NCBI GenBank assembly: GCA_902175065.1
Contig: CABIIJ010000014.1
Span: 1-40,819 of the forward strand
DNA length: 40,819 nucleotides
Reading direction: 5' to 3'
From: an uncultured Comamonas sp.
GTDB lineage: Bacteria; Pseudomonadota; Gammaproteobacteria; Burkholderiales; Burkholderiaceae_C
Position numbers and translations under genes: made by a program. Positions 1,730 through 40,307 of this stretch are shown here, piece after piece. The first letter of the stretch is position 1, and each line of letters opens with the position of its first letter. The notes beneath the pieces are model-generated. The model was not told the DNA's origin. It ran no database searches and saw only the letters and a list, made by a program, of their open reading frames with translations.

Positions 1730-1741
1730 TGGCGCAATGAG

Positions 1742-4678: not shown

Positions 4679-4690
4679 AACAAGGCTCCT

Positions 4691-22200: not shown

Positions 22201-22524
22201 CGGCCATGAACGAGAGACGGAAACCTCCGGTTCCTGCACCTTGGCTGTGCCGTTCCCGGCCATGGCTGGGCGCTCCCGTAGCAACTGGCTCCAGCCTCTC
22301 AAGGTCGGCTGCTGGTACAAGTCCCGCAGCTTCACCTTGTGTCCGCGTTTGCGCAGGCGATGCATCCAGGCCATCAAGCGCATCGAATCCAGGCCCAGCT
22401 TGAGAAAGCTGGCATCAGCGTCCAGTTCGTCTGGCGGCATCCCGAGATCGGCTGCGACCTCTTGGCGCAATGCCTCATCCACCTGTTGCGTCTCTTCTTT
22501 GCTGGTTTGCACCGTTTCCGTCAT
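16294..22524 (-). CDS. irp2: Yersiniabactin-type NRPS (HMWP2/Irp2-like)
   Basis: A 2076-residue NRPS with the HMWP2 layout. The aryl carrier domain has LGLDS (Ser47). Cy1 is about 115-540 with D247/D252/S255. The adenylation domain is about 580-1400 (YTSGSTGMPKG 715-725, YRTGD 943-947, NGK with Lys1402). A methyltransferase-like insert lies in the A domain (about 1125-1355, HEVGARSG near 1202), corresponding to the epimerase region of HMWP2/PchE. PCP1 has GGDS (Ser1460), Cy2 has D1644/D1649/S1652, and PCP2 has Ser2004 in GATSL. The pocket residues begin D-L-Y-N (761, 762, 765, 804) and end I-W, matching the cysteine code recalled for HMWP2. It should accept salicylate from the YbtE-like ligase and build two thiazoline rings. 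Start MTETVQTS is chosen because AAGGAG lies ten bases before it; a longer frame to 22599 has no such site. Confidence 0.95.
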   Translation of the reverse strand: MTETVQTSKEETQQVDEALRQEVAADLGMPPDELDADASFLKLGLDSMRLMAWMHRLRKRGHKVKLRDLYQQPTLRGWSQLLRERPAMAGNGTAKVQEPEVSVSRSWPTMADGQAFHLTPVQHAYLVGRAPHQTLGGVGCHLYQEFDGRGLDADTLEQAIGALIERHPMLLVTFLDDGRQQRRPETRWRGLTLHDLRTASPAECQAHLQAMRERHGHRVLAVKQGENFDFQLTLLPDGNHRLHADIDLLVLDAASFSLVFEELAALVRGQHLPTVSTDYDFRSYLAQTDQENAPIRQQSRDFWLERLDSLPNAPQLPLACEPEQVKQVRISRQRVEIQANDWARFKACAGEYGVTPTMALATCFGAVLARWCSQPQLLLNLTLFDRQPLHSAVDGMIADFTNILLLDIAGEGANFDALAQTNQQTFTDAYEHRHWSGVELLRELRKTPGAYPHGAPVVFTSNLGRPLFGHDVERTLGAPGWGISQTPQVWIDHLAYEHGGSVFLQWDSNAALFPPGMLEAMFQAYVGLVRHLLDHPQAWHEALPDPMPQAQRDVRAQINAYGDVPAPEGLLHAGFWRQEQSQPDAVALIHGERRLSYAELAHQARCCAGALAAHGVQPGDRVAISMSKGIGQIVAVLGILYAGAVYVPVSPDQPLERRRTIYQGAGSRLVLVCRDDGPSDAVDGITFLAWQDAAEHAPLAGPAAVDAHEPAYIIYTSGSTGMPKGVIISHRGALNTCVELNRRYAVTANDRVLALSALHFDLSVYDIFGLLSAGGALVLVSECQRRDPACWCEVIEQHGVTIWNTVPALLDMLLTYSEGFDLQAPAHLRAVMLSGDWIGLDLPGRYRAFRPDGQFIAMGGATEASIWSNIFDVESVAPEWRSIPYGYPLARQKYRVADTQGRDCPDWVPGELWIGGEGVALGYFNDPERTAQQFVTWNDERWYRTGDMGCYWPDGRLEFLGRRDKQVKVGGYRIELGEIEAALLRIEGVKSAVALAVGEREKSLAAFVVPQGTALFSAQPANPLLPADYAALLPIAQWSEGQAEQKQEADMARLVAGFLYEHLSRQGLELSGRITVQEVLAQYGAEPQWAGLLTRWLEFLCQAGYLQRLADGGYTLVEPVPPVWQPSGEHPLREAANMLLTHHAALAQILRGERPAQTLLNHPFWAPEQLLLRVPGTQEAIRILATTIQSLAKTLGRPVRLHEVGARSGLAAAQLLQHLTVSDVAYTAWDESPEMVLRAAERLQHYSHADSRRWHADVPQEQLHQADLVWANNALHRLGDAGVQAVLALAAPAALVFVQELHQVSRLALVSSELLADGLDGGLARRLHDTHWWQELLGRQGMHNEAQTLLGDVQCLVERAPQDVLSPDADRLAQALRGLLPGYMVPQRLFFLDALPLTANGKVDHRALLESCSQSPSQVGAERSLPLGDKEQAIAALWRDLLKVERLYRDSHFFRLGGDSLLATRLIGELSRRGYSAGLGDLFDFPTLAAFAETVHCGETLATHGLRHDPASRYTPFPLTDVQQAYLVGRQPGFALGGVGSHFFVEFEVDDLDVPRFEWAINRLVSRHDTLRAIVQDGMQLVLPQVPDFKLPCHPVADLNDDETVTLRERLARQVLDPSRWPVFDIQAAMVNGGAKASLFVCLDNLMLDGLSMQILLAELEQLYTSPEQALPALEIGFRDYLEHMRLRRVNEVSVAYWARRVESLPPATRLPLRCEPGDVGIPHFARLSAWLSAPQWGALKARARAEGLTPSALLLSAYAATLSAWAERDDLCLNLTLFDRQPLHPQIEQVLGDFTTLLLLAWQPAADWRSSAHGLQQRLRQDLLHRDVSAIQVMRQLAQRAGQAAAAMPVVFTSALGFEQERFLAHASWMKPRWGLSHTPQVWLDHQVYESEGELRFNWDYVQELFEPQQIQTMFDRYVALLQRLATDDAAWSQPLETLVPRLEGIARVASSPPAQPAPEAPAEAAVLRADDALVQALCRHFEMVVGRPIQPRQSFFDAGATSLKLVQLHVHLTQVGHDGLLVTDLFAQATPLALATHLHGHSNVANDTDSINEERRELLAQRKARAQRRRGSIV

Positions 22525-22618: not shown

Positions 22619-23068
22619 TTAGTGATCGCCTCCGGCTTGCAGGCGAGATGTGAGCCAGAACGACCGCAATAGGCGTGAGCCGCCCGTATACGGCCCGATA
22701 CGCCTGGCACGCGTGCGCAGCACAGGGCGGACATCTATTTCGGGTTTGTCTACGCGGGCAAGGTCGAGCAGGTGAGCCTGGTCACGGACTTCGAGCAGGC
22801 CCGTCGCCAACTTGGGAGCCAGGCCATAGTGGCCTGGCGCTCCCTTGACCAACACCTCCCTCAACGCCATGCGGCGCAGCGTCTGGTACATGCTGAAGCG
22901 CGGCATGGGAGAGCCTGATCGAACCAGTTCCGCATGCAGTACTGCGTGCTGAACCCATGCTCCGGGAGCCGTCAGACGCAACATGGCGGCAAGAATCTTC
23001 AGGCGTGCGAGGCTGCTTTTGAGCTTCGCCTCCTGCAACAGCCATCTGGCCTCACGCATATCACTCAT
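22619..23068 (-). CDS. Fur-like winged-helix protein without the metal-binding domain
   Basis: A 149-residue protein whose first half matches the DNA-binding half of Fur. LLQEAKLKSSLARLKILAAML (about 10-30) aligns with the Fur segment around GLKVTLPRLKILEVL, and FSMYQTLRRMALREVLVKG (58-76) with the recognition helix segment around LATVYRVLNQFDDAGIV. The HHHDH metal/dimerization motif and Cys pairs of Fur are absent; the C-terminal half is Arg-rich with no recognised fold. The start MSDMREARW is chosen because AAGGAG lies eight bases upstream; an in-frame ATG eight codons earlier has no such site. It sits 42 bp after the TolC-like gene and about 94 bp before irp2. A regulatory role in the locus is inferred. 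It may bind DNA as a metal-independent competitor of Fur or may have lost that role. Confidence 0.75.
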   Translation of the reverse strand: MSDMREARWLLQEAKLKSSLARLKILAAMLRLTAPGAWVQHAVLHAELVRSGSPMPRFSMYQTLRRMALREVLVKGAPGHYGLAPKLATGLLEVRDQAHLLDLARVDKPEIDVRPVLRTRARRIGPYTGGSRLLRSFWLTSRLQAGGDH

Positions 23069-23110: not shown

Positions 23111-24589
23111 TCATGGCCTCTGGGCCACCAAATGGCGGTTCAACACCAGCACGTCGTCCTCCGAGAACCGTCCGGCGTAGAACTGCAGCTTGGCGTAGGC
23201 CTGGAACCACTCCACATAGGTGCGCAGCAAGGCCTGCCTGGCCTGGTAGGACTGGCGCTCGGCATGCAGGGCATCGGTATTGGTGCGTTCGCCGCCAGCC
23301 ACGCTCTTGCGCATGGCATCGACCAGCGCGGTGCTGTCCGTCACGTTCTGGCGCAGCGTGCTCACGCGCTCGGTGCTGGTGGCAAACACCCGGTAGTACT
23401 GCTCCAGGGTGGTGGCGGTGGTCTGGGTGGTGCGCTCCAGGTCGTAACGGGCCTGGGTCAGCCGGTTGCTGGCCTGGCGCGTGCTGTAGTAGCTGGAGCC
23501 GCCGCTGAACAACGGAATCGAGACCTGCAGGCCGATGGTGTTGCTCTTGTAGTCGCGGCCCTTGTTGTTGATGGTGTCCGAGACGATGCGCTCGTGGGAT
23601 GCATACAGCGACACGCGCGGCATGAACTGGCCTTTCTCGCGCTCCACGGTCAGGTCGTTGTAGCGCACCGCCAGGCGTGCGGCCTGGACTTCCGGGTTCT
23701 GCTGTTGGGCATCGCCCAGCAACACCACCAGGTCACCATCGGGCAAGGCAGGCAGCATGGCCGTCTGGTTGATGTCCATCAGCTCGTGGGCATGGATCGG
23801 CCCACCCAGCAGGGCCGATAGCTCGCGCAATCGGTCGGCCAGCGCATTCTCATAGGTCACCAGTTCCGACTGGGTAGCTCCCAATTGCGTGCGGGTCTCC
23901 AGAATGTCGATCCGGGTGCCTTCACCCTGGGCCATCATGCGTTCGTTGCCGCGCAGCATGTCCTGGTACACGCGCAATTGCTGGCGGGCCAGCTCCAGCG
24001 AATCGCGGGCCAGCAAGGCATTCAGGTAGGCGTCGATCAGGGCCACGGCCTGCTGCTGGAGCTGCAGCCGGTATTGCACCTCGGCATATTCAGCCTGGGT
24101 CTTGCCCATGCGATAGGTGCTGATGGCCGAATAGTCGAACAGCGTTTGCTCAATGGTCAGGCCGGCGCGGCGGCCATAGAAACTGTCCTCGATGCTTTGC
24201 CGGCCGGCAGCCGTGGTGCTGTCGTAGTACTCGGTCTGGTTGGTGCGGTTGCGCAGGTAGTTGATCGAGGCTTGTGGCAACAAGGCGGCACGGGCAATGT
24301 TGCCGCTATCCCGCCCAGCGTCACGGGCCGCGCGGGCACTCAACACCTGCGGGTCGTTGAGCAGCATGCGCTCGTAAGCCTGAACCAGATCGAGCGATGG
24401 CGATTGGCTGGCCAAGGCGGTTGAGGCCTGCCCAACCCCTTGCGGTGGTGATGCCATTTGCAATTGATGCAAAGGCGAAGCCGTAGCGGGTGTGGCCTGG
24501 GCCAATACCGTGGGCATGCCATCGACGTACAGATAGAAAGCTAGAGGCGCGACAATGATCAGCTTGAATGTGTGGCTGCGGCTCATCAT
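23111..24589 (-). CDS. hasF: TolC-family outer membrane factor of type I secretion (HasF/PrtF-like)
   Basis: A 492-residue outer membrane efflux protein with a signal peptide (hydrophobic 9-22, cleavage near LAQA 29-32). It has two OEP repeats: LDLVQAYERMLLNDPQVLSA (about 66-85) opens the first half, and the second includes the ATTLEQYYRVFATSTERV region. It forms the trimeric channel through which the ABC/HlyD pair exports the HasA-like protein. The ATG overlaps the fusion-protein stop by 4 bp. A dedicated TolC gene beside the ABC-HlyD pair is typical of protease/lipase-type exporters (PrtDEF) and less common for Has systems that borrow TolC. Confidence 0.9.
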   Translation of the reverse strand: MMSRSHTFKLIIVAPLAFYLYVDGMPTVLAQATPATASPLHQLQMASPPQGVGQASTALASQSPSLDLVQAYERMLLNDPQVLSARAARDAGRDSGNIARAALLPQASINYLRNRTNQTEYYDSTTAAGRQSIEDSFYGRRAGLTIEQTLFDYSAISTYRMGKTQAEYAEVQYRLQLQQQAVALIDAYLNALLARDSLELARQQLRVYQDMLRGNERMMAQGEGTRIDILETRTQLGATQSELVTYENALADRLRELSALLGGPIHAHELMDINQTAMLPALPDGDLVVLLGDAQQQNPEVQAARLAVRYNDLTVEREKGQFMPRVSLYASHERIVSDTINNKGRDYKSNTIGLQVSIPLFSGGSSYYSTRQASNRLTQARYDLERTTQTTATTLEQYYRVFATSTERVSTLRQNVTDSTALVDAMRKSVAGGERTNTDALHAERQSYQARQALLRTYVEWFQAYAKLQFYAGRFSEDDVLVLNRHLVAQRP

Positions 24590-25947
24590 TCCTCCGTCAG
24601 TGCCAGACGGGTACGGTCACGCAGCGGCTTGAGCAGGTAGCTCATCATGGTGCGTTCACCCGTCTTGACGAAGGCGGTCACCGGCATGCCCGGCTGCAAT
24701 TGCAGGCCCGGCAGCACCTCACGGCTGTCCAGGTCATCCACGCTGATCTCAATGTGGTAGTACGGCATCCCCTGTGGGTCTTCCAGGCGGTCGGCGGAAA
24801 CGGTCTTGACCGTGCCCGGCAGCTTGGGGGTGGAAGATCGGTTGAAGGCGGCAAACTCCAGCTCCACCGGCTGGCCGGTTTGAACCTTGTCCACTTCCTG
24901 CACCGGCAGGCGGCCTTCCACCAGCAAGGGCTGGTCCAGCGGCACGATGTCCATCAGCTTGTCGCCCGCGCTGACCACGCCGCCCTGGGTAAAAACTGCC
25001 AGGCCCGCCACGATGCCCTCGGTAGGCGCGACGATCTGCATGTTGGTCACTTCGTACTGCGCGCTGTCCAGGCGCGACCCAAGGTCGGCGGTGCGTGTGC
25101 GGGTTTCGGCCAACGCCGTGCGCAGTTCCTTCTGGTAATCCTCACGCTGCTGAATCAGGCGCAGCTGGTACTCCTGCACCTGGCCCTGCAACTGCGCCAG
25201 GCGGCCCTGGTCATCGGCCACGGAACCGGCCAGTTGCAGGTATTGGCGTTCGGATTCCAGCAGGCGGTTGCGTGCCAGCAGGCCGTCATCGGCCAAGGAA
25301 CGCTGCCCGGCCAGTTGATGCTCAAAGGTCTCGCGCTGGCTGCGGCGCGACTGCAGGATGCGTTGCAAGCTGTCGCTTTGCTCGCGCAGGCCGCGCAAAG
25401 TGGCTTCCAGGCCGCCCAGGGTAGCCTGCTGGGCGCTGCGGCGGCTGTCGAACAACTGCCGCTGCGCCTGGATGATCTCTGCGGCTTGCAAGTTGCCCTC
25501 GCGCTCAGCTTGCCGCAGGCGTTCGTCGAAGCGGATGTCATTCAAGCCGTCCCGCTCGGCTATCAGGCGGTTCTCCGTCGCCAGGCTGCTGAGGAACTGG
25601 AACTGCAAGGAATCCAGTTGGTTGCTCGCCACGTTCGGCTCCAGCACCACCAGCACCTGGCCTTCTTTCACCCGCTGGCCCTCAGTGACCAGAATCCGTT
25701 GCACCTTGCCGCCGCTGATGGGCTGCACCGCTTTGCGGTTGCCGCTGACCACCACCTTGGCATCGACTGGCACGCCGGCATCCAGTGGTGCCAGCATGGC
25801 CCAGCCGAGAAAACCCACCACGCCGACCAGTACGATCAGCCAGCCCAGCCGCACAAAGTGGCGATCATCCACCGACAGCAGATCATCCTTGGGGTCGATC
25901 AGGTCGGCGTCCAGTGAAGAGGCGTCCATATTCATCGTCGTGCTCAT
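24586..25947 (-). CDS. hasE: Type I secretion membrane fusion protein, HlyD family (HasE/PrtE-like)
   Basis: A 453-residue periplasmic adaptor. A short cytoplasmic N-terminus is followed by one membrane segment (about 33-54, WLIVLVGVVGFLGWAML), a biotinyl/lipoyl-like region, a long Gln/Leu/Arg-rich coiled coil (about 120-310) and the beta-barrel end PGMPVTAFVKTGERTMMSYLLKPL, which is the HlyD-family C-terminal signature. It links the inner membrane ABC exporter to the TolC-like channel. The start overlaps the ABC gene stop by four bases (ATGA), and its own stop overlaps the TolC-like start by four bases, giving a coupled D-E-F set. Confidence 0.93.
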   Translation of the reverse strand: MSTTMNMDASSLDADLIDPKDDLLSVDDRHFVRLGWLIVLVGVVGFLGWAMLAPLDAGVPVDAKVVVSGNRKAVQPISGGKVQRILVTEGQRVKEGQVLVVLEPNVASNQLDSLQFQFLSSLATENRLIAERDGLNDIRFDERLRQAEREGNLQAAEIIQAQRQLFDSRRSAQQATLGGLEATLRGLREQSDSLQRILQSRRSQRETFEHQLAGQRSLADDGLLARNRLLESERQYLQLAGSVADDQGRLAQLQGQVQEYQLRLIQQREDYQKELRTALAETRTRTADLGSRLDSAQYEVTNMQIVAPTEGIVAGLAVFTQGGVVSAGDKLMDIVPLDQPLLVEGRLPVQEVDKVQTGQPVELEFAAFNRSSTPKLPGTVKTVSADRLEDPQGMPYYHIEISVDDLDSREVLPGLQLQPGMPVTAFVKTGERTMMSYLLKPLRDRTRLALTEE

Positions 25948-27746
25948 GCTCCCTCCTTGCGTTGCGCAAAGTTCATCGCGGCCCCATAGGTGGGAATGGG
26001 CATGACCCGTTGCTGTGGTTGGGGTTGCCCGGACGTTGGCCTTGGCTGGGCACCGCGTTGCATGCGCTGCATCACCTCGGTCATCGGGCCGAAGTCGGCC
26101 TGAGCACCGGCGTGCAAGATCAGCAGCTTGTCGGCCTGTTTGAGGATGTTGGGTTTGTGCGTGATCAGCACCAGGGTGATGCCAGCGGTCTTCATCCGGC
26201 CAATGGCCTCGGCCAGCATGGCGTCACCGGCTTCGTCGAGGTTGGCGTTGGGTTCATCCAGCACTACCAGGCACGGCTCGCCGTACAGCGCACGGGCCAG
26301 GCCCACGCGCTGGCGTTGCCCGCCAGACAGGCCCATGCCGTTTTCGCCCAGACGGGTCTGGTAGCCCTCGGGCAATTGCAGAATCAGCTCATGCACCCCG
26401 GCCATCTGCGCAGCGGCAATCACCTTGGCTTCATCCACCTCACCGAAGCGGGCAATGTTCTCGGCCACCGTACCTGCGAACAGTTGCACGTCTTGCGGCA
26501 GGTAGCCGACCAGCGCGCCCAGGGCTTCCGGCCGCCATTGGTCGAGCGGGGCGCTGTCCAGCCGCACCTTGCCGCGCAGCGGTGGCCAGGCATTGACCAG
26601 GCAGCGAGCCAGCGTGGTCTTGCCCGCGCCGGAGGGGCCGATCACCACCAGCACCTCACCGGCGTTCAGCTTGAAGTTGATGCCATGCAGCACCGGCTGG
26701 GTCTGGCTGGGCGGGGCGGCCAGCAACTGTTCGACCGCCAGATTGCCTGCCGGGCGGGGAAAATCCATGCCTTTGGCCAGCGGTGGAAAGTCACCAAGCA
26801 ATTGGCTCAGGCGGCGTTCGGCTTCCTTGACCTGCGTCCATTGTCGCGATGCGCCCATGATCTGGTCTATGGGCGCCAGGGCGCGGCCCAGTAGGATGGA
26901 GCCGGCAATCATCATGCCCGCCGTCATCTGGTTTTCCAGCACCAACCAGGCCCCCAGGCCCAAGGCCAGGGACTGCACCGCCATGCGCAGCGCCTTGTTC
27001 CAGCCCTGAATCTTCGCCATGCGGGCACTGGCCAGGTTCTGCTCACGCACATAGCCCAGGTGCTGCTCAGCCCAGCGGCGGCGCAGGTTGGCCAGCATGC
27101 CCATACCGGCAATCACCTCGGCATTGCGCAGGTTGGCCCCGGCATCGCGGCGGGAATTGATCGCCAGTTCCCCGGCTTTCTTCAGGTGCGGGCGGCTCAC
27201 CCGCTCATTGAGCCAGGCCACGCCCATCAGCACCACGGTGCCGCCCAGGGCGAACCAGCCCAGCGCGGGGTGGAAATAGAACATCACCAGCACATACACC
27301 GGGAACCAGGGCGCATCGAACAGCGCGAACAGTGATTGGCCGGTGGCGAACTGGCGCAATTGTTGGAGATCGTCCAGCGGCTGGGCGGCATTGAGCTTGC
27401 CGGTCTTGAGGTTGGCGCTGAAGGCCGCGTCGTAAATGCGTGGGGCCAGCTTGCGGTCAAACCCGGTGCCCAGGCGCAGCACCACCAGCGAACGCACCCA
27501 CTCCAGCGCCCCCATCAGGGCATACATGCCCAGCAGGATGACGGTGAGCATCAGCAAGGTCATTTCGTTGCCGGAGGCCAGTACCCGGTCATACACTTGC
27601 AGCATGTACAGCGCCGGGGCCAGCATCAGGATATTGATGACGCCCGAGAACACGCCGATATGTACGAAACTGCGTTTGTAGGTCAGCAGAGCACGGGCCA
27701 ATTCACCGTGCGCACCCTCTGCCGGCCGGGATTTGCCCGCCGTCAT
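25944..27746 (-). CDS. hasD: Type I secretion ABC exporter (HasD/PrtD-like)
   Basis: A 600-residue fused membrane/ATPase half-transporter of the PrtD/HasD type. The transmembrane region covers about 25-295. The nucleotide-binding domain has Walker A GPSGAGKT (370-377), Q-loop GYLPQDVQLF (414-423), signature LSGGQ (473-477), Walker B LVVLDE (493-498) and the switch His530. A Pro/Gln-rich tail follows. It recognises the C-terminal signal of its substrate, presumably the HasA-like protein encoded just upstream, and energises its export in one step. The 245-bp gap between hasA and this start holds hairpins and partial regulator-site copies. The ribosome site is weak (AAGGG about 12 bases upstream). 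Confidence 0.93.
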   Translation of the reverse strand: MTAGKSRPAEGAHGELARALLTYKRSFVHIGVFSGVINILMLAPALYMLQVYDRVLASGNEMTLLMLTVILLGMYALMGALEWVRSLVVLRLGTGFDRKLAPRIYDAAFSANLKTGKLNAAQPLDDLQQLRQFATGQSLFALFDAPWFPVYVLVMFYFHPALGWFALGGTVVLMGVAWLNERVSRPHLKKAGELAINSRRDAGANLRNAEVIAGMGMLANLRRRWAEQHLGYVREQNLASARMAKIQGWNKALRMAVQSLALGLGAWLVLENQMTAGMMIAGSILLGRALAPIDQIMGASRQWTQVKEAERRLSQLLGDFPPLAKGMDFPRPAGNLAVEQLLAAPPSQTQPVLHGINFKLNAGEVLVVIGPSGAGKTTLARCLVNAWPPLRGKVRLDSAPLDQWRPEALGALVGYLPQDVQLFAGTVAENIARFGEVDEAKVIAAAQMAGVHELILQLPEGYQTRLGENGMGLSGGQRQRVGLARALYGEPCLVVLDEPNANLDEAGDAMLAEAIGRMKTAGITLVLITHKPNILKQADKLLILHAGAQADFGPMTEVMQRMQRGAQPRPTSGQPQPQQRVMPIPTYGAAMNFAQRKEGA

Positions 27747-27759
27747 TACATCACCAGCC

Positions 27760-27873
27760 CTTTTTACGGAAAAAGAATCCCCCTCCCCATAAAAACGGGG
27801 AAAGCCGAAATCTGCCTGCAGCTTGTTTTTGCAGGTGGTTCCGTAAACCGCTAAAATCGACGGCTTCCGGAAG
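27760..27873. promoter_or_regulatory. hasA-hasD intergenic control region with partial copies of the shared regulator element
   Basis: TTCCGTAAACCGCTAAA on the plus strand at 27839-27855 matches the core of the 26-bp element found near ybtA and hasR (14 of the first 15 bases). A minus-strand TTTTTCCGTAAA at 27763-27774 matches part of the same core, so the two lie in opposite orientations. The second copy is part of a small palindrome CTTTTTACGGAAAAAG (27760-27775) just before the hasD leader. A perfect 10-bp palindrome CTTCCGGAAG lies at 27864-27873. This may be an internal, regulated promoter for hasDEF; no confident -35/-10 pair is claimed. Confidence 0.4.
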
Positions 27874-27878
27874 ACGGA

Positions 27879-27961
27879 GCCTGGCCAAAAAGCACCAGGC
27901 CCCGGTACTACCCGGTCAAGTGGTGGATCTTCCCGCTAGAAAATCACCACCACTTTTCCGG
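27879..27961 (-). terminator. Hairpins downstream of hasA (possible attenuator)
   Basis: About 36 bp after the hasA stop lies a strong dyad with perfect 9-bp arms AAGTGGTGG (27918-27926) and CCACCACTT (27947-27955), extended by CCGG on both outer sides (27912-27915 and 27958-27961). A second smaller dyad follows, GCCTGG/CCAGGC (27879-27884 and 27895-27900). Neither is followed by a clear U-run on the minus strand, so a partial terminator or 3'-end stabiliser between hasA and hasD is more likely than full termination. Confidence 0.5.
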
Positions 27962-27991
27962 TCAAACCTCTTGCATTTCTGGAATGGCTGC

Positions 27992-31851: not shown

Positions 31852-32007
31852 CCCTGGCTGGCCCCTGTTGCCTCCGAGTGCGTTCCTTGCCCCTTGCGGC
31901 GCGATGTCCGCTGCGATGGGAAGGAGTGAGCGTCTTTCGATGAAGACTCTTGTGGAAGGCTGTCGATTACCAGCTATTCCGGATGATTACCAAATTTCGC
32001 CAACCGT

Positions 32008-32033
32008 GCTAACGGTTTACGGGAAAAATTTGA
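32008..32033 (-). promoter_or_regulatory. 26-bp shared element, hasR copy
   Basis: On the minus strand it reads TCAAATTTTT, then CCCGTAAACCGTTAGC. It is identical to the copy at 33176-33201 except for one base (25 of 26), and similarity continues patchily on both sides (for example GTTGGCG downstream). It points toward hasR, about 230 bp before its start codon. It is a candidate binding site of the AraC-family regulator encoded between the two copies. Confidence 0.65.
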
Positions 32034-32143
32034 CATTTCGGGGTTTTTTGTTGCAGTACACCATGCGCGGCGGGTAAGTGCTTGCTTCCAGCCACGCCGT
32101 GACGCGGCCTGAAGGTGTGTTGTGGCGGTGTGGCAGGCAGGAA

Positions 32144-33157
32144 TTACTGCAGGCCATCACCCGCCAGTTGGCGTTGCAGCTTGGGGGTGATGCCCAGTGC
32201 GCACTGCTTGGGCGAGATGCCGGTGTGGGTGCGGAACAACCGGCTGAAGTGGCTGAGGTTGGCAAAGCCGCAGCTGATGGCGGTTTCGGTGACGCTGGTG
32301 CCGCGTTGCAGCATGGTGATGGCGACGTCGAGTCGGATGCGGGTCAGGCAGGCATAGACCGAGCAGCCATACATGGCATGGAAGCCCGACTGTAGGCGTT
32401 TTTCGTTCAGGCCCACGGCGCGGGCCAGGGTTTGCACGGTCCAGTCCTGGTCATAGCTCTTCTCCAGGAGCGCGCGAGCGTCGATCAGGTGGGGTCTGTC
32501 GGCGGGCACCGGCAGTACAACCTGCTGCGCTGCGAGGTTTTCACGCAGGAAGCAGGCGATGGCCTCGAATGCCTTGGCGCGCAGGTACAGATCACGTGAG
32601 ATGCAGGGGCCGGGGTAAGTGCAGCCAAAGCCCAGCAGGTCGCACGCGATACGCTGCAGGCCGCTGGAGGCCGGCATGACACCGAGAAAGGCGTCGATGT
32701 GCGATTGATCGCCAGCCACGGTGCAGATGCGGCTGCGCAAGTCGTCCATCTGCAGGCCGGTCAGGCCAGCCATGGCGGTTTGCGGCATGTGGATGCTGAC
32801 CATGCGGAAGGCACCTTCAGACTGGCCGTCGAGCACGTCCCAGCCTTTGGCGTATGAGCCTGTCGCCATCATGATGGCCGATCCCGCCTTGGCATCGAGC
32901 ACGGCACCATCGTCGAAGGCTGCCTGCATGCGGCCTTCGAGCAGGATGTTCACGCTGAAGGCCGATGGCCCTTCTGCCTGAAATGCCCATTTGCTGCCTG
33001 GGCGGCCATTGATGCAGCTGATGCACAACCCTTCGCAGGGTTGATACATGTGAACCGCGTGCCTCCAATCTTCGTGTACGTGGTCCAGCCCTTCTTCTGG
33101 CAGTTTGCCTGGATCAAGGGCTGGTTGGCCGGACACTATCTCTGCGTTCCCCGCCAT
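32144..33157 (-). CDS. ybtA: AraC-family regulator (YbtA/PchR-like)
   Basis: A 337-residue regulator. The N-terminal part (about 1-225) would be the ligand-sensing domain, in YbtA and PchR taken to respond to the ferri-siderophore. The C-terminal double helix-turn-helix (about 235-325) includes WTVQTLARAVGLNEKRLQSGF and the family signature region ending AISCGFANLSHFSRLFRTHTGISPKQ. It diverges from the ybtX-led uptake operon, as an activator of uptake and synthesis genes would. AGGAAA lies before the ATG. Its own promoter region includes one copy of the 26-bp element about 19-44 bp upstream of the ATG, which fits autorepression as known for YbtA. Confidence 0.9.
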   Translation of the reverse strand: MAGNAEIVSGQPALDPGKLPEEGLDHVHEDWRHAVHMYQPCEGLCISCINGRPGSKWAFQAEGPSAFSVNILLEGRMQAAFDDGAVLDAKAGSAIMMATGSYAKGWDVLDGQSEGAFRMVSIHMPQTAMAGLTGLQMDDLRSRICTVAGDQSHIDAFLGVMPASSGLQRIACDLLGFGCTYPGPCISRDLYLRAKAFEAIACFLRENLAAQQVVLPVPADRPHLIDARALLEKSYDQDWTVQTLARAVGLNEKRLQSGFHAMYGCSVYACLTRIRLDVAITMLQRGTSVTETAISCGFANLSHFSRLFRTHTGISPKQCALGITPKLQRQLAGDGLQ

Positions 33158-33344
33158 AAAAATTTCCTGAAAACATCAAATTTTTTCCGTAAACCGTTAG
33201 CGCTATTTTTCAGTTGGCGTAATGATGCTCGATATCACTATTACCTATCTTATCGCTAAATATACAAGATAGACATTGGCAATTGTGATTTACCCGCATC
33301 TAGCCCATGACAAAAGCCTTAATCAGGCCACGGACTTTTTCAGT
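33158..33344. promoter_or_regulatory. Divergent ybtA/ybtX control region
   Basis: This 187-bp A+T-rich gap contains the 26-bp shared element (33176-33201). A Fur-box-like 15-mer TGATGCTCGATATCA lies at 33223-33237 (11 of 15 to the consensus core). A dyad CTATCTT/AAGATAG (33245-33251 and 33266-33272) is separated by 14 bases. It must drive ybtA leftward and the ybtX-ybtP-ybtQ-fyuA operon rightward. Iron repression through Fur together with AraC-type activation is inferred from this layout; exact start sites are not claimed. Confidence 0.65.
33176..33201 (+). promoter_or_regulatory. 26-bp shared element, ybtA/ybtX copy
   Basis: It reads TCAAATTTTT followed by TCCGTAAACCGTTAGC on the plus strand, with one mismatch to the hasR copy. 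It faces the uptake operon, about 143 bp before the ybtX start, and lies 19 bp from the ybtA start codon. It is a candidate YbtA-type operator. Confidence 0.65.
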
Positions 33345-34613
33345 ATGTCGATCACTTCCCTAGTTCCGTCGCGCCTGAGTGCGCGGCAGGTTTTACCTGC
33401 TATTGCAGGCATCTATATCAGCCAGACGATTATTACGGCTTTAACTACCCAGGCACTGCCTTCGCTGTTGCGCGATGCCGGAGCTTCGTTGCAAGTGGCC
33501 GGGTTGACTGCCCTGCTATGGATACCTTGGGGGCTGCGTTTTCTGTGGGCACCAGCGGTGGAGCGCTGGCGCTTGCCTGCCGGCCAACTGACGCGGCATT
33601 CACGGACACTGGTCTTGACAGGCCAATGGTTGATTGCGGCGGTATTGCTGCTGTTGGGGCTGGCGGCGCTGGGCGGTGTTCTCTCGCTGTCCGGGCATGC
33701 CGGATGGATTCTGGGCGGCTTGTTGCTGGCGGCCTTGGTGGCCGCAACCACGGACGTGGCCAGCGACGGCTTTACGGTTGAGCAGCTTGCCAGCCAGCAG
33801 CGCGGCTGGGGCAATGTTGCCCAGGTGGGTGGCAGCTATGTCGGAGCGATGCTGGGCGCTGGGGGGTTCCTGTTGGTGGCCGGATCTGCAGGCTGGCCAT
33901 GGGCACTCATGGCCGCCAGCCTGGCGGTATTGCTGCTGAGCATACCGATGCTGCTCTTGCGTGAGCCGCCCCGTGATAGAGCCTTGGCTGTCGGCCACCG
34001 TCCTGGGCTGATGCATGCGCTGCGCCGGCCGGAGATACGCATCGGTCTGGTGTTGATGCTGCTCTCCAGCGTAGGGGTGCGCTTGACGCTGGGGATGTTT
34101 GGCCCATTCCTGCTCGACAAGGGCTTGAGCCTGGAGCAACTGGGCTGGTTGTTCGGCTCCCTGCATATTGGTGCCGGGCTGACTGGGGCTTTCCTGGGTG
34201 GCATTCTGGTACGGGCCGCGCCAGGCTGGCGGGCGGTATGGATTGCGGTGGGCTTGAAGGCACTGGTTCTGGCTGCTTTGACCTTGGCGGCTCCCACGGC
34301 CTCCCTAACGGTGTTGATGGTGCTGGTGGGGCTGATGTTCGCAGTGCTGGGCTTTGTCTGGGTCGCGCTTTACTCAGCGCTGATGGGGCTGACTTCGCCC
34401 TTGCAGTCCGGTGTGGATTTCACCCTGTTCCAGAGTGCTGATGCCTTGCTGGCGGTGGCAGGAGGTGTGGCCGGAGGCTGGCTGTCCCAACATCTTGGAT
34501 ACGAAGTGTGCTTCGGACTGGCAGCGGCTTCAGCCGTGGTCGCAGTACTGGTGGTCAGGCGCAAGGCTCCTTCCCTGGATGACAAAGCGAGGGGGCTTAC
34601 GGCATATGAGTGA
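33345..34613 (+). CDS. ybtX: MFS siderophore permease (YbtX / RhtX-FptX family)
   Basis: A 422-residue inner membrane protein with about 12 hydrophobic segments. The N-terminal block QVLPAIAGIYISQTIITALTTQALPSLLRDAG is typical of the RhtX/FptX group that moves ferri-siderophores into the cytoplasm; RhtX and FptX transport rhizobactin and pyochelin, while YbtX in Yersinia is not strictly required for uptake. MSITSLVPSRL is taken as the start because it gives a length close to YbtX (426); a longer frame needs a TTG start inside the control region. No strong ribosome site is visible. Its end overlaps the ybtP-like start by 8 bp. Confidence 0.9.
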   Translation: MSITSLVPSRLSARQVLPAIAGIYISQTIITALTTQALPSLLRDAGASLQVAGLTALLWIPWGLRFLWAPAVERWRLPAGQLTRHSRTLVLTGQWLIAAVLLLLGLAALGGVLSLSGHAGWILGGLLLAALVAATTDVASDGFTVEQLASQQRGWGNVAQVGGSYVGAMLGAGGFLLVAGSAGWPWALMAASLAVLLLSIPMLLLREPPRDRALAVGHRPGLMHALRRPEIRIGLVLMLLSSVGVRLTLGMFGPFLLDKGLSLEQLGWLFGSLHIGAGLTGAFLGGILVRAAPGWRAVWIAVGLKALVLAALTLAAPTASLTVLMVLVGLMFAVLGFVWVALYSALMGLTSPLQSGVDFTLFQSADALLAVAGGVAGGWLSQHLGYEVCFGLAAASAVVAVLVVRRKAPSLDDKARGLTAYE

Positions 34614-36375
34614 GGGCAATTCTCAGGCGGTTCCGGGTGTCTGGTCCATCATGCGGCCTGTGCAGGACCAGATCCGCCTGGCCATGGTCTTGGCGGGGCT
34701 GGCAGCCGCCTGTGCCCTGGGGGCCTTGTGTGCGCTGGCCTGGTGCGTGCATACCTTGCTGATCGCACCCGGCCAGTGGCCTTGGGCAGCCCTGTCGCTG
34801 GCCGTCGTGCTGACGGTACTGGCGTACGTTCTGCGGCTGACGGCATTCAATCGCTCGCATTTCGCGGCCTTCCAATTGGAAACCCGCTTGCGTACCGATC
34901 TTTCCGAGCATCTGGCGCGGGTGCCGCTGGGCTATGTGCAGCAGACCGGCTCCGGTGCTTTGACCAAGGTGATGATGGATGACGTCAAGGCGCTGCATGT
35001 GTTTGTGGCCGACAGCACGCCTTTGTATGCGCGGGCTTATGTCTCGCCGCTACTGACCTTCGCGCTGCTGTGGTGGCTGGATTGGCGGCTGGCCCTGGCG
35101 GCGACGGCGGTGCTGGCGGTCGGCATGGCGGTGGTGTCGCTTGCCATGCGCGGCAGCGGCGAGATGATGCAGCATTACCACGCCGCCAGCGAGAACGTCA
35201 GCAAGGCCGTGGTGGAGTATGTGCAGGCCATGCCGGTGGTGCGTACCTTCGACACCGGCACAACCACATTCCAGCGTTACCAGCAGGCACTCAATGCCTT
35301 CGTCGAGGTGGTGTTGCAGTGGTACCGGATGGCGGGTGTGTCGTCGCGCCTGTCGATGGCCATCCTCAATCCGCTGCCCACCCTGGCGGTGCTGGTGTGG
35401 CTGGGCGGCTGGCTGATCAGCCGTGACGCGCTGGCGGCTTCGACCTGGTTGGCAGTGCTGCTGGTGGGCACGGGCATGGCCGAATCGCTGCTGCCGCTGA
35501 TGTCGCTCAAGCACCTGGTCGCCAAGACACAGATGAGCATCTACCGCATCCACGAAGTCATGGCCGAGCCGGAGCTGCCAGTGGTGGATAGTGCCCAGGC
35601 CAAGGTGCCGCGAGATGCCAGCGTGTGCTTCGAGAACGTGGATTTTCGCTACATGGCTGATGGCGAGCGGGTGCTGCAAGGTGTGAGCTTCGAGGCACCT
35701 CAAGGCAGTGTCACGGCATTGGTCGGCCCTTCGGGTGCGGGCAAGACGACGGTGGCGCGGCTGATTCCGCGCTTCTGGGACGTGAGTTCTGGCTGTATTC
35801 GGGTGGGCGGCGTGGATGTGCGCGAGATGCTGCCCGAGGTCTTGATGCAGCAGGTGGCTTTCGTGTTTCAGGACACGTTTCTGTTTGCCGACACCATCGC
35901 CAACAACATCCGCCTGGGTCTGGGTGCTGCGACCATGGATGAAGTCATTGCCGCTGCCAAGGCCGCCCAGGCCCATGAGTTCATCATGGCCTTGCCGCAA
36001 GGCTATGACACGCCCGCAGGCGAGCGGGGTGTCTTTCTCTCCGGCGGGCAACGCCAGCGCATCACCATCGCCCGCGCCATCTTGCAGAACCGGCCCATTC
36101 TGGTGCTGGACGAGGCTACGGCCTTTGCCGACCCGGAAAACGAGGCGGCACTGGTGGCGGCACTGTCGAACCTGATGCACGGCAAGACGGTGCTGATGGT
36201 GGCGCACCGGCTATCGACCATCCGGGATGCCGACCAGATTCTGGTATTCGACCAGGGGCAACTGGCCGAGCAAGGCCGACACGATGCGCTGGTGGCACAG
36301 GGCGGCGTGTATGCGCGGCTATGGCATAACTATGAAACAGCGCAGAACTGGTCGCTGGCAGGAGTCATGGCATGA
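34606..36375 (+). CDS. ybtP: ABC transporter half, inner membrane permease/ATPase (YbtP-like)
   Basis: A 589-residue fused permease-ATPase. The membrane part covers about 20-300. The ATPase has Walker A GPSGAGKT (374-381), signature LSGGQ (478-482), Walker B ILVLDE (498-503) and switch His534. The D-loop reads ATAFADPENE rather than the usual SALD, as in the YbtP/IrtA-type siderophore importers. Although built like an exporter, YbtP with YbtQ imports the iron complex. The start MSEGNSQ has GAGGGGG about 12 bases upstream and overlaps the permease gene; a longer frame to 34411 lies inside that gene and is not used. Confidence 0.93.
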   Translation: MSEGNSQAVPGVWSIMRPVQDQIRLAMVLAGLAAACALGALCALAWCVHTLLIAPGQWPWAALSLAVVLTVLAYVLRLTAFNRSHFAAFQLETRLRTDLSEHLARVPLGYVQQTGSGALTKVMMDDVKALHVFVADSTPLYARAYVSPLLTFALLWWLDWRLALAATAVLAVGMAVVSLAMRGSGEMMQHYHAASENVSKAVVEYVQAMPVVRTFDTGTTTFQRYQQALNAFVEVVLQWYRMAGVSSRLSMAILNPLPTLAVLVWLGGWLISRDALAASTWLAVLLVGTGMAESLLPLMSLKHLVAKTQMSIYRIHEVMAEPELPVVDSAQAKVPRDASVCFENVDFRYMADGERVLQGVSFEAPQGSVTALVGPSGAGKTTVARLIPRFWDVSSGCIRVGGVDVREMLPEVLMQQVAFVFQDTFLFADTIANNIRLGLGAATMDEVIAAAKAAQAHEFIMALPQGYDTPAGERGVFLSGGQRQRITIARAILQNRPILVLDEATAFADPENEAALVAALSNLMHGKTVLMVAHRLSTIRDADQILVFDQGQLAEQGRHDALVAQGGVYARLWHNYETAQNWSLAGVMA

Positions 36376-38195
36376 GTACACAGCAACCCACACCGAAGAC
36401 CGCAACTAGGATCACGCCCCTGCGCGAGACCTGGCAGCAACTGATGAGCAGTGCCCGCAGCCGCGCCCCCCAATTGCGGGCCAGCCTGATCGGGCTGGGC
36501 TTGGCTGCTGCCCTACAAGGCCTGGCACTGGCATGCCTGATGCCCTTGTTCCAGGCACTGATTCCGCAGGCGGATTGGACTGCCGCCTGGCCCTGGCTGC
36601 TGGCGATGACAGCATTGATGCTGGCAAGCACGGCAGTGCGTTGGTGGGCCCAGGGCTTCGATTACCGGGGCGACATGGTGCACAACACCCATCAACTGCG
36701 CACCGAGCTGGGCGAGCAGTTGCGGCGGATTCCGCTGGAGGTCTTGCAGGACAAGCGCACCGGCGCGGTGAATGCCACGCTGCTGGGCAATGTGGACGAG
36801 ACGCTGAGCTACATCCTGACCGTTGCCAATATGATGGCAACCGCCCTGGTTACGCCAGTGGTGGTGGCGCTGGCAGCCCTGTGGTTCGACTGGCGCATGG
36901 GGCTGATTCTGCTGCTGGTGTTTCCGCTGCTGATTCCGTTGTACCGCTGGCGGCGTCCGGCCTTCGGGCGCGGCATGCGCATGCTGGCCGATGCCAACGA
37001 GCGCACCAGCAGCGATATTTTGGAGTACGCCCAAGGCCTGCCGGTACTGCGGTCGGCATGTTGTGTGGGTGAGCACGCTGTGGCCTTGCAGGCCAGTTTC
37101 AAGCACCTGGAAATGATCCAGACCATCGGCCAGAAGAAAGGCGCCAAGCCGAACCTGGTCCTGGCAACCGTCATGGAGCTGGCCATCCTGCTGGTGGTGT
37201 TCGTCGGCACGCTGTTGGTCGTGCAAGGTTCGCTGGATGTCGCCATTCTGGCGGCCTTGATGGTGATCGTGGTGCGCTTTGCCGAACCGTTGGCGACTTT
37301 TGTGCTGTACGCCAAGGTGATTGACCTGATCGAGGCCGCTCTGGGCAAGATCAATGCCCTGCTGGCCGTCGCGCCCTTGCCCCAGCAATCGCCCGAGCAG
37401 ATGCCAAAGACTTTTGACGTGGCATTCGAGGGTGTGCGCTTTGGCTATGCCAGTGCCGAGCAGCCCACGCTGCGCGATCTGGATGCGTATCTGCAAGCCC
37501 GCAGCCTGACGGCCTTGGTTGGCCCTTCAGGCAGCGGCAAGACCACGGTGACGCGTTTACTGATGCGCCATGCCGACCCGCAGGCTGGGGCCATCACCAT
37601 CGGTGGCGTGGATATCCGCGCGATCGCGCCGGAGCAGCTCAATGCGCTGATTTCCGTGGTGTTCCAGGACGTGTACCTGTTCGACGACACCATCCTGGCC
37701 AACATCCGCATGGCCCGGCCCGACGCCAGCGATGCAGAGGTCGAGGCCGCCGCCCGTGCGGCCCATTGCCATGAGTTCGTCACGCGCTTGCCCGAGGGCT
37801 ACGCCACACGCGTGGGCGACATCGGCGGGCGGCTCTCGGGCGGCGAGCGTCAGCGCATCAGCATTGCGCGGGCCATGCTCAAGAATGCCCCCATCGTCAT
37901 CCTCGACGAGCCTACCGCCGCGCTGGATACCGAGAGCGAAGTGGCGGTGCAGACCGCCATTGATGCTCTGGTGCGTGAGCGCACGGTGATCGTGATTGCC
38001 CACCGCCTATCAACCATTGCCGCTGCCGACCAGATTCTGGTGATCGACGATGGACAAGTGGTCGAGGCCGGCAGGCATGCCGATCTGCTGTCCTGTAAGG
38101 GCCGTTACGCCCGCATGTGGCAGGCCCAGCAAAGTGCCAAGAACTGGCATGCCAGCCGCGAGGCACAACCAAATTTTGACTTAGCAGGAGATTGA
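36372..38195 (+). CDS. ybtQ: ABC transporter half, inner membrane permease/ATPase (YbtQ-like)
   Basis: A 607-residue partner of the preceding half-transporter. Membrane segments span about 35-315. Walker A GPSGSGKT is at 384-391, signature LSGGE at 488-492, Walker B IVILDE at 508-513, and the D-loop PTAALD is canonical. With YbtP it forms the heterodimer that carries the ferri-siderophore across the inner membrane. ATGA overlap with the ybtP-like stop indicates coupled translation. Length agrees with YbtQ (about 600). Confidence 0.93.
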   Translation: MSTQQPTPKTATRITPLRETWQQLMSSARSRAPQLRASLIGLGLAAALQGLALACLMPLFQALIPQADWTAAWPWLLAMTALMLASTAVRWWAQGFDYRGDMVHNTHQLRTELGEQLRRIPLEVLQDKRTGAVNATLLGNVDETLSYILTVANMMATALVTPVVVALAALWFDWRMGLILLLVFPLLIPLYRWRRPAFGRGMRMLADANERTSSDILEYAQGLPVLRSACCVGEHAVALQASFKHLEMIQTIGQKKGAKPNLVLATVMELAILLVVFVGTLLVVQGSLDVAILAALMVIVVRFAEPLATFVLYAKVIDLIEAALGKINALLAVAPLPQQSPEQMPKTFDVAFEGVRFGYASAEQPTLRDLDAYLQARSLTALVGPSGSGKTTVTRLLMRHADPQAGAITIGGVDIRAIAPEQLNALISVVFQDVYLFDDTILANIRMARPDASDAEVEAAARAAHCHEFVTRLPEGYATRVGDIGGRLSGGERQRISIARAMLKNAPIVILDEPTAALDTESEVAVQTAIDALVRERTVIVIAHRLSTIAAADQILVIDDGQVVEAGRHADLLSCKGRYARMWQAQQSAKNWHASREAQPNFDLAGD

Positions 38196-38198
38196 ACC

Positions 38199-40307
38199 AT
38201 GCCCCCCTTCAAATTGCGTCTTCTCAGCCTGGCGCTGATTTCGCTCCATTCCCTGGCAGGAATGGCTACTGCGCAAGCACAAGACGTAGCAACAGACGCC
38301 GGGGATGTTCAGTCGCTTGCTCCTGTGGTGGTGTCGGCCAGCAAACGCGGCGAAACCCTGGATCAGCTCAACGGTGCCGCCAGTGTGGCCGACCGCCTGG
38401 CCCTGGACGATGCCCAGGTAAGCTCTACCCTGGAGCTGGACCGGGTCTTTCCCGAGTTGTACATGTCGCACAGCGCGACATTCCTGTTCCCCATCATCAC
38501 GCTGCGCGGGGTGACGTCTGCCCAGGATTTCTACAACCCGGCCTTGACGATCTATGTGGATGGCGTGCCGCAACTGCCGACCTTTGCCGCCCAGTCGTTA
38601 CTGGGGGTTGAACAGGTGGAACTGCTCAAGGGGCCGCAAGGCACGCTGTATGGCAAAAGTGCCCAGGGCGGCGTGCTCAACATCGTTTCCCACAAGCCCG
38701 ACAACACACCGCAGTTCGCCGCCCGCGCCGGCGTATCGAGCCGCGACGGCTATCAGGTGCAGGCGGAGGGTTCCGGGCCACTGGTCGAGGATCTGCTGTA
38801 CGGGTCGGTGTCGCTGCTGGGCAATGACGTCAATGGGGATATTCGTAGTGACGTGATCGGCAGTGACAAGCTGGGTGGCGTGCGTTCGCGAGCCGGCAAC
38901 GTGAAACTGCGCCTGGCGCCGACCGGCAGCCCATGGGAGTTGGGCCTGAGTGGTGGACGCGATTGTGCGACGGGTGATCAGGAGGTCTATACCCTGTTCG
39001 ACGACTACAAATCGCGCAGAGCCTATGTCTCGCCCAATCTGCCAGAGGCCTACCGGGATTACCGCCAGAAGCGCTGCGCCAACAGTTTCGCCGCCAATGG
39101 ACAGTACGATTTCGACCAATGGCGCCTGAACGTGATCGCCAGCAGCCAGCGTGTGCATACCTCGCGCCACTGGCCGATCGACATTTATTTCCCGCAGTTC
39201 TCCGAGCACTGGAAGCAAAACACCCAGGAAGTACGCCTGTCGACACGGGCGAATGAGACTGGTGATGCCTCTCCACGCGCCTGGGATGCCGTGTTCGGCC
39301 TGTACCGCCAGGAAGTGGATATGTCGCGGGGTTATCAGTTCGACATGGTAGTGCCCAGCCTGTATCGGGTCGTGGATTCTGCATCGACCAACCGCACCGA
39401 GTCCCTGGCGGCTTATGGGGATGTGACCTGGCACCTCACCTCCAAGGCGGATATCACGACCGGCCTGCGCTTCACCCGGGATGAAGCCCGAACCCGTTTC
39501 GACGGCGAGCAGATGGGCAATGGCTTCCAGGGCCAGGCGTCATCGAGCCAGAACACCTGGCTGGGGCACGTTGCCGCTGGCTATCAGTTTGCACCGCAGT
39601 GGCGCGGCTACATCAACGTGGCGCAGGGTTACAAGCCGCTGGGCTACAACCTGGCACCTTCCAGTGTGGATGATGCCAAGGGCTATGGCCGCGAGCGCTC
39701 AATCAGCTACGAGGCCGGTGTGCGCTATTCCGCCGATACGCTGCGCGCCAGCATGGCCGTCTACCGCGTGGACAGCAAGGACGTGCAGCTCTATGGCGAT
39801 GGTGACATGGGCAACCAGACCTTGCGCAACGTCGGTGACACTCGCTCGGTTGGCGTGGAGTTCAATACCGAGTGGGATATCACCCGACAGTGGACGCTCA
39901 GTGCCGGGGGCTTCGTGAATGACGCCACATTCCGCCGCTTCGAGGACTCCAGCGCCTGCACCGGCTGCACGCACAACGACGTGCCGATGGCGCCTCGTTA
40001 TGGCGTGACCTTGGCCGCCAAGGGCAATGTGCGCGTGGGTGACACGGTATTGCGACCACAGCTCTCAGTGCGCCGTACCGGAGCACATTACTTCGACAGC
40101 GCCAATACCCTGCGCCAGAACGCCTATACCGTGGTGGATGCCGGGCTGGCCTGGAATCCGACCAGCAACCTGGAGTTGATGCTCTACGCCCAGAATCTGA
40201 CCGACAAGGACTACCGGACCTATGGCTTCTCCTACGGGGCAACCGGCAATTTCGCTCAGGTGGCGCCAGGCCGGACCGTGGGGCTGACGGCAACCTATAT
40301 GTACTGA
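38199..40307 (+). CDS. fyuA: TonB-dependent ferric-yersiniabactin-type receptor (FyuA-like)
   Basis: A 702-residue outer membrane receptor. It has a signal peptide 1-28 (cleavage after AQAQ), the TonB box region LAPVVVSASKRGE (40-52), a plug with ITLRGVTSAQDFYNPALT then YVDGVPQL, and KGPQGTLYGKSAQGGVLNIV. These blocks agree almost residue for residue with Yersinia FyuA as recalled. The barrel ends in TVGLTATYMY with a terminal aromatic. AGGAGA precedes the ATG, only three bases after the ybtQ-like stop. FyuA is about 673 residues. The close similarity is the best single clue that the product is yersiniabactin-like rather than pyochelin-like. Confidence 0.95.
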   Translation: MPPFKLRLLSLALISLHSLAGMATAQAQDVATDAGDVQSLAPVVVSASKRGETLDQLNGAASVADRLALDDAQVSSTLELDRVFPELYMSHSATFLFPIITLRGVTSAQDFYNPALTIYVDGVPQLPTFAAQSLLGVEQVELLKGPQGTLYGKSAQGGVLNIVSHKPDNTPQFAARAGVSSRDGYQVQAEGSGPLVEDLLYGSVSLLGNDVNGDIRSDVIGSDKLGGVRSRAGNVKLRLAPTGSPWELGLSGGRDCATGDQEVYTLFDDYKSRRAYVSPNLPEAYRDYRQKRCANSFAANGQYDFDQWRLNVIASSQRVHTSRHWPIDIYFPQFSEHWKQNTQEVRLSTRANETGDASPRAWDAVFGLYRQEVDMSRGYQFDMVVPSLYRVVDSASTNRTESLAAYGDVTWHLTSKADITTGLRFTRDEARTRFDGEQMGNGFQGQASSSQNTWLGHVAAGYQFAPQWRGYINVAQGYKPLGYNLAPSSVDDAKGYGRERSISYEAGVRYSADTLRASMAVYRVDSKDVQLYGDGDMGNQTLRNVGDTRSVGVEFNTEWDITRQWTLSAGGFVNDATFRRFEDSSACTGCTHNDVPMAPRYGVTLAAKGNVRVGDTVLRPQLSVRRTGAHYFDSANTLRQNAYTVVDAGLAWNPTSNLELMLYAQNLTDKDYRTYGFSYGATGNFAQVAPGRTVGLTATYMY

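Follow-up and report, generated by a model that had tools for sequence, protein, structure and literature searches.

A 26-bp Element Common to Siderophore-Transport and hasR-Side Promoters as the Putative Operator of an AraC-Family Regulator in an Uncultured Comamonas sp.

Introduction

Two iron-capture strategies that are usually treated apart, the diffusible siderophore and the secreted HasA-fold carrier, appear to stand under one operator in the locus described here and in unrelated lineages. The locus belongs to an uncultured Comamonas sp. and was analysed as one stretch of 40,819 nucleotides (contig CABIIJ010000014.1), referred to below as the window. An AraC-family regulator gene is flanked there by siderophore-transport genes on one side and by genes resembling the Has hemophore system on the other, and nearly the same 26-bp core precedes both. 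In the initial annotation, this was read either as one siderophore-sensing regulator that also switches on heme acquisition, or as a duplicated promoter segment that brought the Has genes under its control. The questions raised are what the element is, which genes it serves and what the HasA-fold protein carries. Pseudomonas PchR and Bordetella AlcR are AraC proteins that sense a siderophore and act on the promoters of receptor and biosynthesis genes; the window regulator is likened to them by description, as a putative siderophore-sensing AraC protein.

Gene Content of the Window

The features are collected in Table 1. The regulator carries an AraC/XylS DNA-binding domain, and 116 relatives of it were found. 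On the plus strand, the MFS gene spans 33276-34613 as the longest open reading frame (ORF), with an ATG at 33346. The minus-strand run has the order hasR, hasA, secretion genes, 149-aa ORF, irp2-like and irp1-like synthetase genes, Irp3-like reductase, thioesterase, AMP ligase/chorismate-binding fusion and phosphopantetheinyl transferase. The HasR-like receptor remains below the cut-off of TIGR01785. The irp2-like gene has about 67% DNA identity to irp2 of E. coli over 52-54% of the 3,971-base query, and the irp1-like label was given by position and length. The 149-aa ORF had been taken by eye for a Fur-like protein, a candidate dropped for having no Pfam match at E ≤ 10. The fused protein of 978 aa (1742-4678, minus strand) possesses AMP-ligase and chorismate-binding domains, as if a salicylate activator and a salicylate synthase had been joined.

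Table 1. Coordinates of the genes and regulatory features of the window
Feature	Position	Strand	Basis or remark
Phosphopantetheinyl transferase, fused AMP-ligase/chorismate-binding enzyme, thioesterase, Irp3-like reductase	989-6602	-	Pfam
irp2-like and irp1-like synthetases	6599-22524	-	Same strand, downstream of the Has-like genes
149-aa ORF between hasF and irp2	22619-23068	-	
Type I secretion genes (PrtD/HasD-like, HlyD-like, TolC-like)	23111-27746	-	TIGR01842, TIGR01843, TIGR01844 over cut-off
Structured hasA-hasD spacer	27747-27991	-	Folding z -5.26 against shuffles
HasA-fold secreted-carrier candidate, 272 aa	27992-28810	-	
HasR-like TonB receptor, 962 aa	28891-31779	-	PDB HasR (3ddr), E 4.5e-32; Plug domain only
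-10-like AATCAT, core offset 45	31983-31988	-	Consensus resemblance only
26-bp core, hasR-side copy	32008-32033	-	TCAAATTTTTCCCGTAAACCGTTAGC; faces hasR
Upstream half-site (weaker), hasR-side operator	32034-32053	-	CAACAAAAAACCCCGAAATG
AraC-family regulator, 337 aa	32144-33157	-	PF12833 and PF00165
Upstream half-site, transport-side operator	33155-33175	+	CATAAAAATTTCCTGAAAACA; lag 20-21 self-identity in the 14 aligned transport-side sites
26-bp core, transport-side copy	33176-33201	+	TCAAATTTTTTCCGTAAACCGTTAGC; faces MFS-ABC-ABC-receptor genes
-10-like AATGAT, core offset 45	33221-33226	+	Consensus resemblance only
RhtX/FptX-like MFS and two ABC transporter proteins	33276-38195	+	
FyuA-like TonB siderophore receptor	38199-40307	+	TIGR01783 over cut-off; PF00593, PF07715

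Regarding the extent of the minus-strand run, 42 bp separate hasF from the 149-aa ORF and 94 bp separate that ORF from irp2, and the best core matches before irp2 in the window (16/26 and 15/26) are at shuffle level. Since no second operator is seen there and the gaps are short, co-transcription from hasR through the synthetase genes is likely, and the hasR-side operator probably serves both the Has-like and the siderophore synthetase genes. An operator heading a gene run into the siderophore synthetase is absent from the reading of the initial annotation. What is new here is the inclusion of a HasA-fold carrier and its receptor in a siderophore regulon, where they lead the gene run of the synthetases.

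The Two Copies of the Core

The two copies are identical at 25 of their 26 bases, and at 28 of 31 when the flanks are included. Direct comparison bears out this agreement as first annotated, together with the orientation of each copy towards its operon (the MFS/ABC/ABC/TonB-receptor genes and the hasR-like receptor, respectively) and the position of the araC gene between them. When the core was searched for with up to 3 mismatches, only these two copies were found in the window, against none in 100 dinucleotide shuffles, as well as in the whole genome (3,226,798 bases in 103 contigs), where the reversed-pattern control gave no match. Occurrence at many unrelated genomic places, which had been named as an observation that would speak against a regulatory role, is thus not seen.

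Anatomy of the Putative Operator

For the anatomy of the element, 14 transport-side, 11 hasR-side and five other sites were aligned, all having a core near TCAAATTTTTTCCGTAAACCGTTAGC and a similar half-site ahead of it. The mean self-identity of the transport-side sites is 0.51 at lag 20 and 0.44 at lag 21, that of the hasR-side sites peaks at 0.39 at lag 20, and that of the five other sites is weaker, 0.37 at lag 21. Half-sites in tandem at a helical spacing, as expected of a regulon of the YbtA/PchR kind, are therefore found, and the 26-bp core looks like the stronger half of an operator of about 46 bp with two half-sites and a period of 20-21 bp. The araC start codon, read on the opposite strand, makes up the first three bases of CATAAAAATTTCCTGAAAACA.

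Downstream of the core, 10 of the 14 transport-side sites, 5 of the 11 hasR-side sites and 3 of the 5 others have NATSAT at core offset 45, a spacing that places the core end GTTAGC at the position of a -35 box. Neither of the -10-like hexamers of the window was called by a standard promoter scan, a silence that fits an activator-dependent promoter but is no demonstration of one. The similarity in patches beyond the core, as noted originally, can now be read as the upstream half-site and a -10-like hexamer at equal offset. Beyond these operator and -10 positions, the two promoters are unlike and their flanks differ.

Distribution of the Element among Relatives of the Regulator

Species genomes were scanned with an alignment of 30 AraC relatives, resulting in 426 stretches encoding a relative, of which the best 80 loci were kept. 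Gene content was examined in 26 of these (L003-L026, L053 and L056), of which 23 were also scanned for the element, taken as present at 18/26 or more. Relatives of the regulator accompanied by the element are found in beta- and gammaproteobacteria. The transport-side element is present in 17 of the 23 loci scanned and falls below the threshold in the other six (L016, L017, L019, L020, L053 and L056), the araC of L056 being a fragment. On the other side, an element precedes hasR in all 11 loci having this gene, with scores of 26, 25, 24, 24, 23, 22, 19, 19, 18, 18 and 16 out of 26. The lowest of them, in L020, is at chance level taken alone and shares 22/26 with the site of L016, and the sites of L016 and L017 (18/26) barely exceed the shuffle maximum of 17. 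In L012 (24/26) and L014/L113 (25/26), hasR lies distant from araC and the element is retained.

The element also stands before irp2 in the three loci where this gene directly follows araC (23, 24 and 24), and before fyuA in one locus, while in L011 a transposase gene comes after the second element. A further mark of a YbtA/PchR-kind regulon, an operator sequence common to transport and biosynthesis genes, is thus observed. When 20 genomes were searched whole, 18 had matches and 33 of the 35 matches lay at these loci, compared to a single match of the reversed pattern; because the pattern was derived from the surveyed loci themselves, its specificity is the informative part. One of the extra sites (G079:C11:78649) lies inside a PEP carboxykinase gene. 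The other (G063:C44:11691, equal to L114:10692-10717), from Stutzerimonas kirkiae, is a core-like site with 2 mismatches to the degenerate pattern, in no Pfam-known gene and some 400 bp ahead of genes resembling dimethylamine monooxygenase, and may be chance or a genuine additional site.

In Pollutimonas, whose regulator is 48% identical, the two copies are identical to each other and have 19/26 in common with those of the window. A general co-change of the copies was tested in 12 pairs, omitting L003 and L004 as duplicates of the window pair, and gave p 0.027, rising to 0.33 without Pollutimonas and to 0.83 without three pairs. As it rests on Pollutimonas, the general claim was rejected and this genus retained as a single striking case.

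Some relatives were also noted for their gene content. Lampropedia hyalina and Comamonas kerstersii (L003, L004; genomes G061, G062) have araC and importer genes with 96-100% protein identity to those of the window, and no close irp2-like synthetase was found in them, as though their siderophore came from elsewhere. A search of 36 further genomes of the genus found no such regulator, suggesting horizontal gain. The Pantoea-type loci L016, L017 and L020 possess araC and hasR with a variant element and have no ybt importer genes nearby; an irp2-like synthetase (40-45%) occurs elsewhere in the genomes of both Pantoea among them, and FyuA-like receptors (41-42%) elsewhere in all three. The genome of L017 has hasR and no HasA-like match.

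Other Origins of the Repeat

The near-identity of the two window copies would also be expected if the element were a neutral duplication repeat, or the site of another regulator, such as Fur or an unlinked AraC protein, with the adjoining araC incidental. For Fur, the best consensus match scores 13/19 on the transport side, a value that 21 of 500 shuffles attain, but the hasR-side best of 12/19 was reached by 54 of 500, and neither overlaps a core copy. Against such origins, the whole-genome matches fall at the loci of this AraC regulator, the flanks are unlike, and the copies, in relatives, differ by up to 8 bases within one genome yet hold their position. Taken together, such origins are very unlikely. 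A recent duplication of a promoter segment, the second of the two original readings, was likewise rejected, as the similarity is confined to the operator and -10 positions, the hasR element is found with the same regulator in distant relatives, without exception among the loci with hasR, and two of these have hasR away from araC.

The best explanation is very probably that the element is the main half of an operator of the AraC regulator, common to the transport genes and the hasR-side genes. The original claim of one regulator switching on both sets stands in this part, as the element shows the behaviour expected of an operator for the adjoining AraC protein at siderophore-transport and hasR promoters of several lineages, and this regulatory reading is well supported by the sequence comparisons.

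Comparison with the YbtA Regulon and Proposed Mode of Action

The arrangement is similar to the YbtA regulon of Yersinia and E. coli, where an AraC-family gene lies between divergent transport genes and irp2, with an equal gene order in E. coli, though there no Has genes are found between ybtA and irp2. Published work proposes repeats before both operons as YbtA sites, in addition to autorepression (PMC5634559), and treats Fur and YbtA inputs as separable, with predicted sites, also naming PchR (PMC8725597). The window regulator differs in being 24% identical to YbtA overall, and the DNA-binding end alone gives a local match. The core reaches at best 13-14/26 in the two intergenic stretches of E. 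coli, whose own best shared 26-mers agree at a raw 20/26 (a score that has no shuffle baseline), one of them being Fur-box-like. These values speak against a close relation to YbtA and its operator, so the system would work like YbtA control but is not the YbtA operator. Among the titles and abstract openings covered, a partial sample of the literature, no description of Has genes under an AraC siderophore regulator was found. The system appears to be a regulon of the YbtA/PchR kind, under an AraC protein, that has taken on a new passenger, a HasA-fold family.

Two regulator subunits would bind, one to each of the direct half-sites, which are spaced by about 20-21 bp. The strong half ends at the -35 position, about 19 bp before the -10-like AATSAT, and from there the bound regulator could activate RNA polymerase. 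As the transport-side operator touches the araC start codon, autoregulation would also be possible. By analogy with YbtA and PchR, the ligand is likely the metal-loaded siderophore. The transport-side copy would then drive siderophore import, and the hasR-side copy would drive hasR-hasA-hasDEF and probably the synthetase genes behind them, so that one signal could lead to the siderophore, its importer and the secreted HasA-fold carrier with its receptor being made together.

The HasA-Fold Carrier and Its Receptor

As for the Has-like genes, they resemble the HasA/HasR hemophore systems of Serratia and Pectobacterium in the HasA fold of the 272-aa carrier candidate, the homology of the receptor to the solved HasR, the HasDEF-type exporter and the order receptor-carrier-exporter. 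They differ in a carrier outside Pfam HasA and lacking His32 and His83, and in the AraC-type control. In addition, the marks of HasI/HasS-type control are not found, as the window receptor has no STN domain and there is no FecR among the 17 window proteins scanned, unlike one Pectobacterium-like control locus with STN on HasR and a FecR-type gene nearby; this combination is seen at the control locus L141, and the control HasR of L143 is without STN.

None of the 45 members of the carrier family matches Pfam HasA (PF06438) at E ≤ 0.1, while a control HasA gives 4.5e-101. A search of the class (185 genomes) and of 14 control genomes gave no Pfam HasA match, and for this reason Enterobacterales were used, 5 of 247 having a match. 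Conversely, the HasA-like profile had no match among solved-structure sequences or plasmids, and its two matches in 295 Erwiniaceae were both already known. Tyr75 and His83 are invariant in the 26 true HasA sequences aligned, whereas the carrier family lacks His32 and His83 and has no conserved histidine column, the best being His in 32 of 45 members and Tyr in the other 13. In the weak profile alignment made by hhalign, His83 falls in a gap and Tyr97 (Tyr in 32/45) lies opposite Tyr75; by eye, it is Trp86 (45/45) that lies there, a replacement weakened by the placing of Tyr97.

Two other arguments against heme were dropped. The HasR residues His189 and His603 are absent in the window receptor and in 4 of 4 control HasR as well, and heme oxygenase is missing from all four control genomes with a true HasA. 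What emerges is a largely unannotated family of HasA-fold proteins that has kept receptor and exporter but not His32 and His83 of HasA, through which the question of what HasA-fold proteins carry becomes directly testable.

What the Carrier May Bind

The part of the original claim that concerned heme acquisition is not secure, given the lack of Pfam HasA matches, of His32 and His83 and, in this genome, of HemS and HmuV. It is quite possible, though somewhat short of probable, that the genes, though divergent, form a true heme system controlled by a siderophore-sensing regulator, in which case a siderophore signal would also lead to heme capture. The fold, the receptor homology and the exporter are consistent with it, and both the His/Tyr column and Tyr97 could provide ligands; HasA of Y. 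pestis holds heme via Tyr75 alone (PMC9627568). HemS and HmuV are both over cut-off in 6 of the 9 other genomes with a HasA-like gene and present in all four true-HasA control genomes, but neither is over cut-off in this near-complete genome. The missing Pfam match, the gap opposite His83 and a histidine column of at most 32/45, where true HasA sequences are invariant, also weigh against heme.

It is less likely, and on the whole doubtful, that the cargo brought by the HasA-fold protein to the HasR-like receptor is the siderophore, or some other metal complex. The operator and gene run in common with the siderophore genes, as well as the absence of HasA ligands, would suit such a cargo, and HasA can hold a non-porphyrin iron chelate, as the title of PDB entry 3w8m reads (HasAp with Iron Salophen). 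A precedent is XusB of Bacteroides, which binds a siderophore and supplies a TonB transporter in siderophore piracy (PMC13142918). The XusAB system is alike in having an extracellular carrier for a TonB transporter and differs in that XusB is a beta-propeller lipoprotein, the window carrier having a HasA fold and a siderophore cargo that is hypothetical. Against this cargo, a FyuA-like siderophore receptor is already encoded, and in C. kerstersii this receptor is 99% identical to that of the window while hasR is 52% and hasA 42% identical, indicating that variation in hasR and hasA does not go along with that of the siderophore receptor.

In its most specific form, which is equally unlikely, the HasA-fold protein would be a dedicated extracellular carrier of the organism's own phenolate-thiazoline siderophore (with Fe or Cu), exported by a HasDEF-type pump, co-induced by the putatively siderophore-sensing AraC protein and delivered to the HasR-like receptor, and the receptor-carrier pair would be a specificity cassette exchanged between strains. 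If true, a secreted public good would thereby be kept private.

Possible Exchange of the hasR-hasA Cassette, and the hasA-hasD Spacer

Compared to Lampropedia hyalina in 150-base blocks, the DNA identity is 96-100% from 33600 to about 31470, then 45-77% through hasR and hasA (about 31470 to about 28020) and again 91-100% over most of hasD, with 77% in the final block compared, at the L003 edge. C. kerstersii (L056) carries yet another version, with hasD 96% identical at the protein level beside the divergent pair; its left flank has 84-85% DNA identity, so a clean exchange is visible only against Lampropedia. In the HasR plug, the protein identity of 74-90% against a DNA identity of about 67-77% suggests a swap for an old allele more than rapid change. 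The divergence of the cassette could be due to a privatised secreted carrier, or to escape from phages or bacteriocins.

A further operator between hasA and hasD in the window was considered and rejected, since its core match (17/26) is at shuffle level and inside a predicted RNA hairpin. The match there is 17/26 in Lampropedia, and 6 of the other 7 loci compared have it at shuffle level, like the window; in C. kerstersii it is 20/26, over a shuffle maximum of 16. The spacer itself has no match in Rfam at gathering score, as searched over the window, and it is kept in seven other loci, with changes on both sides of 23 of the 58 predicted pairs in at least one of 8 sequences. It is a candidate RNA element setting the levels of carrier versus exporter.
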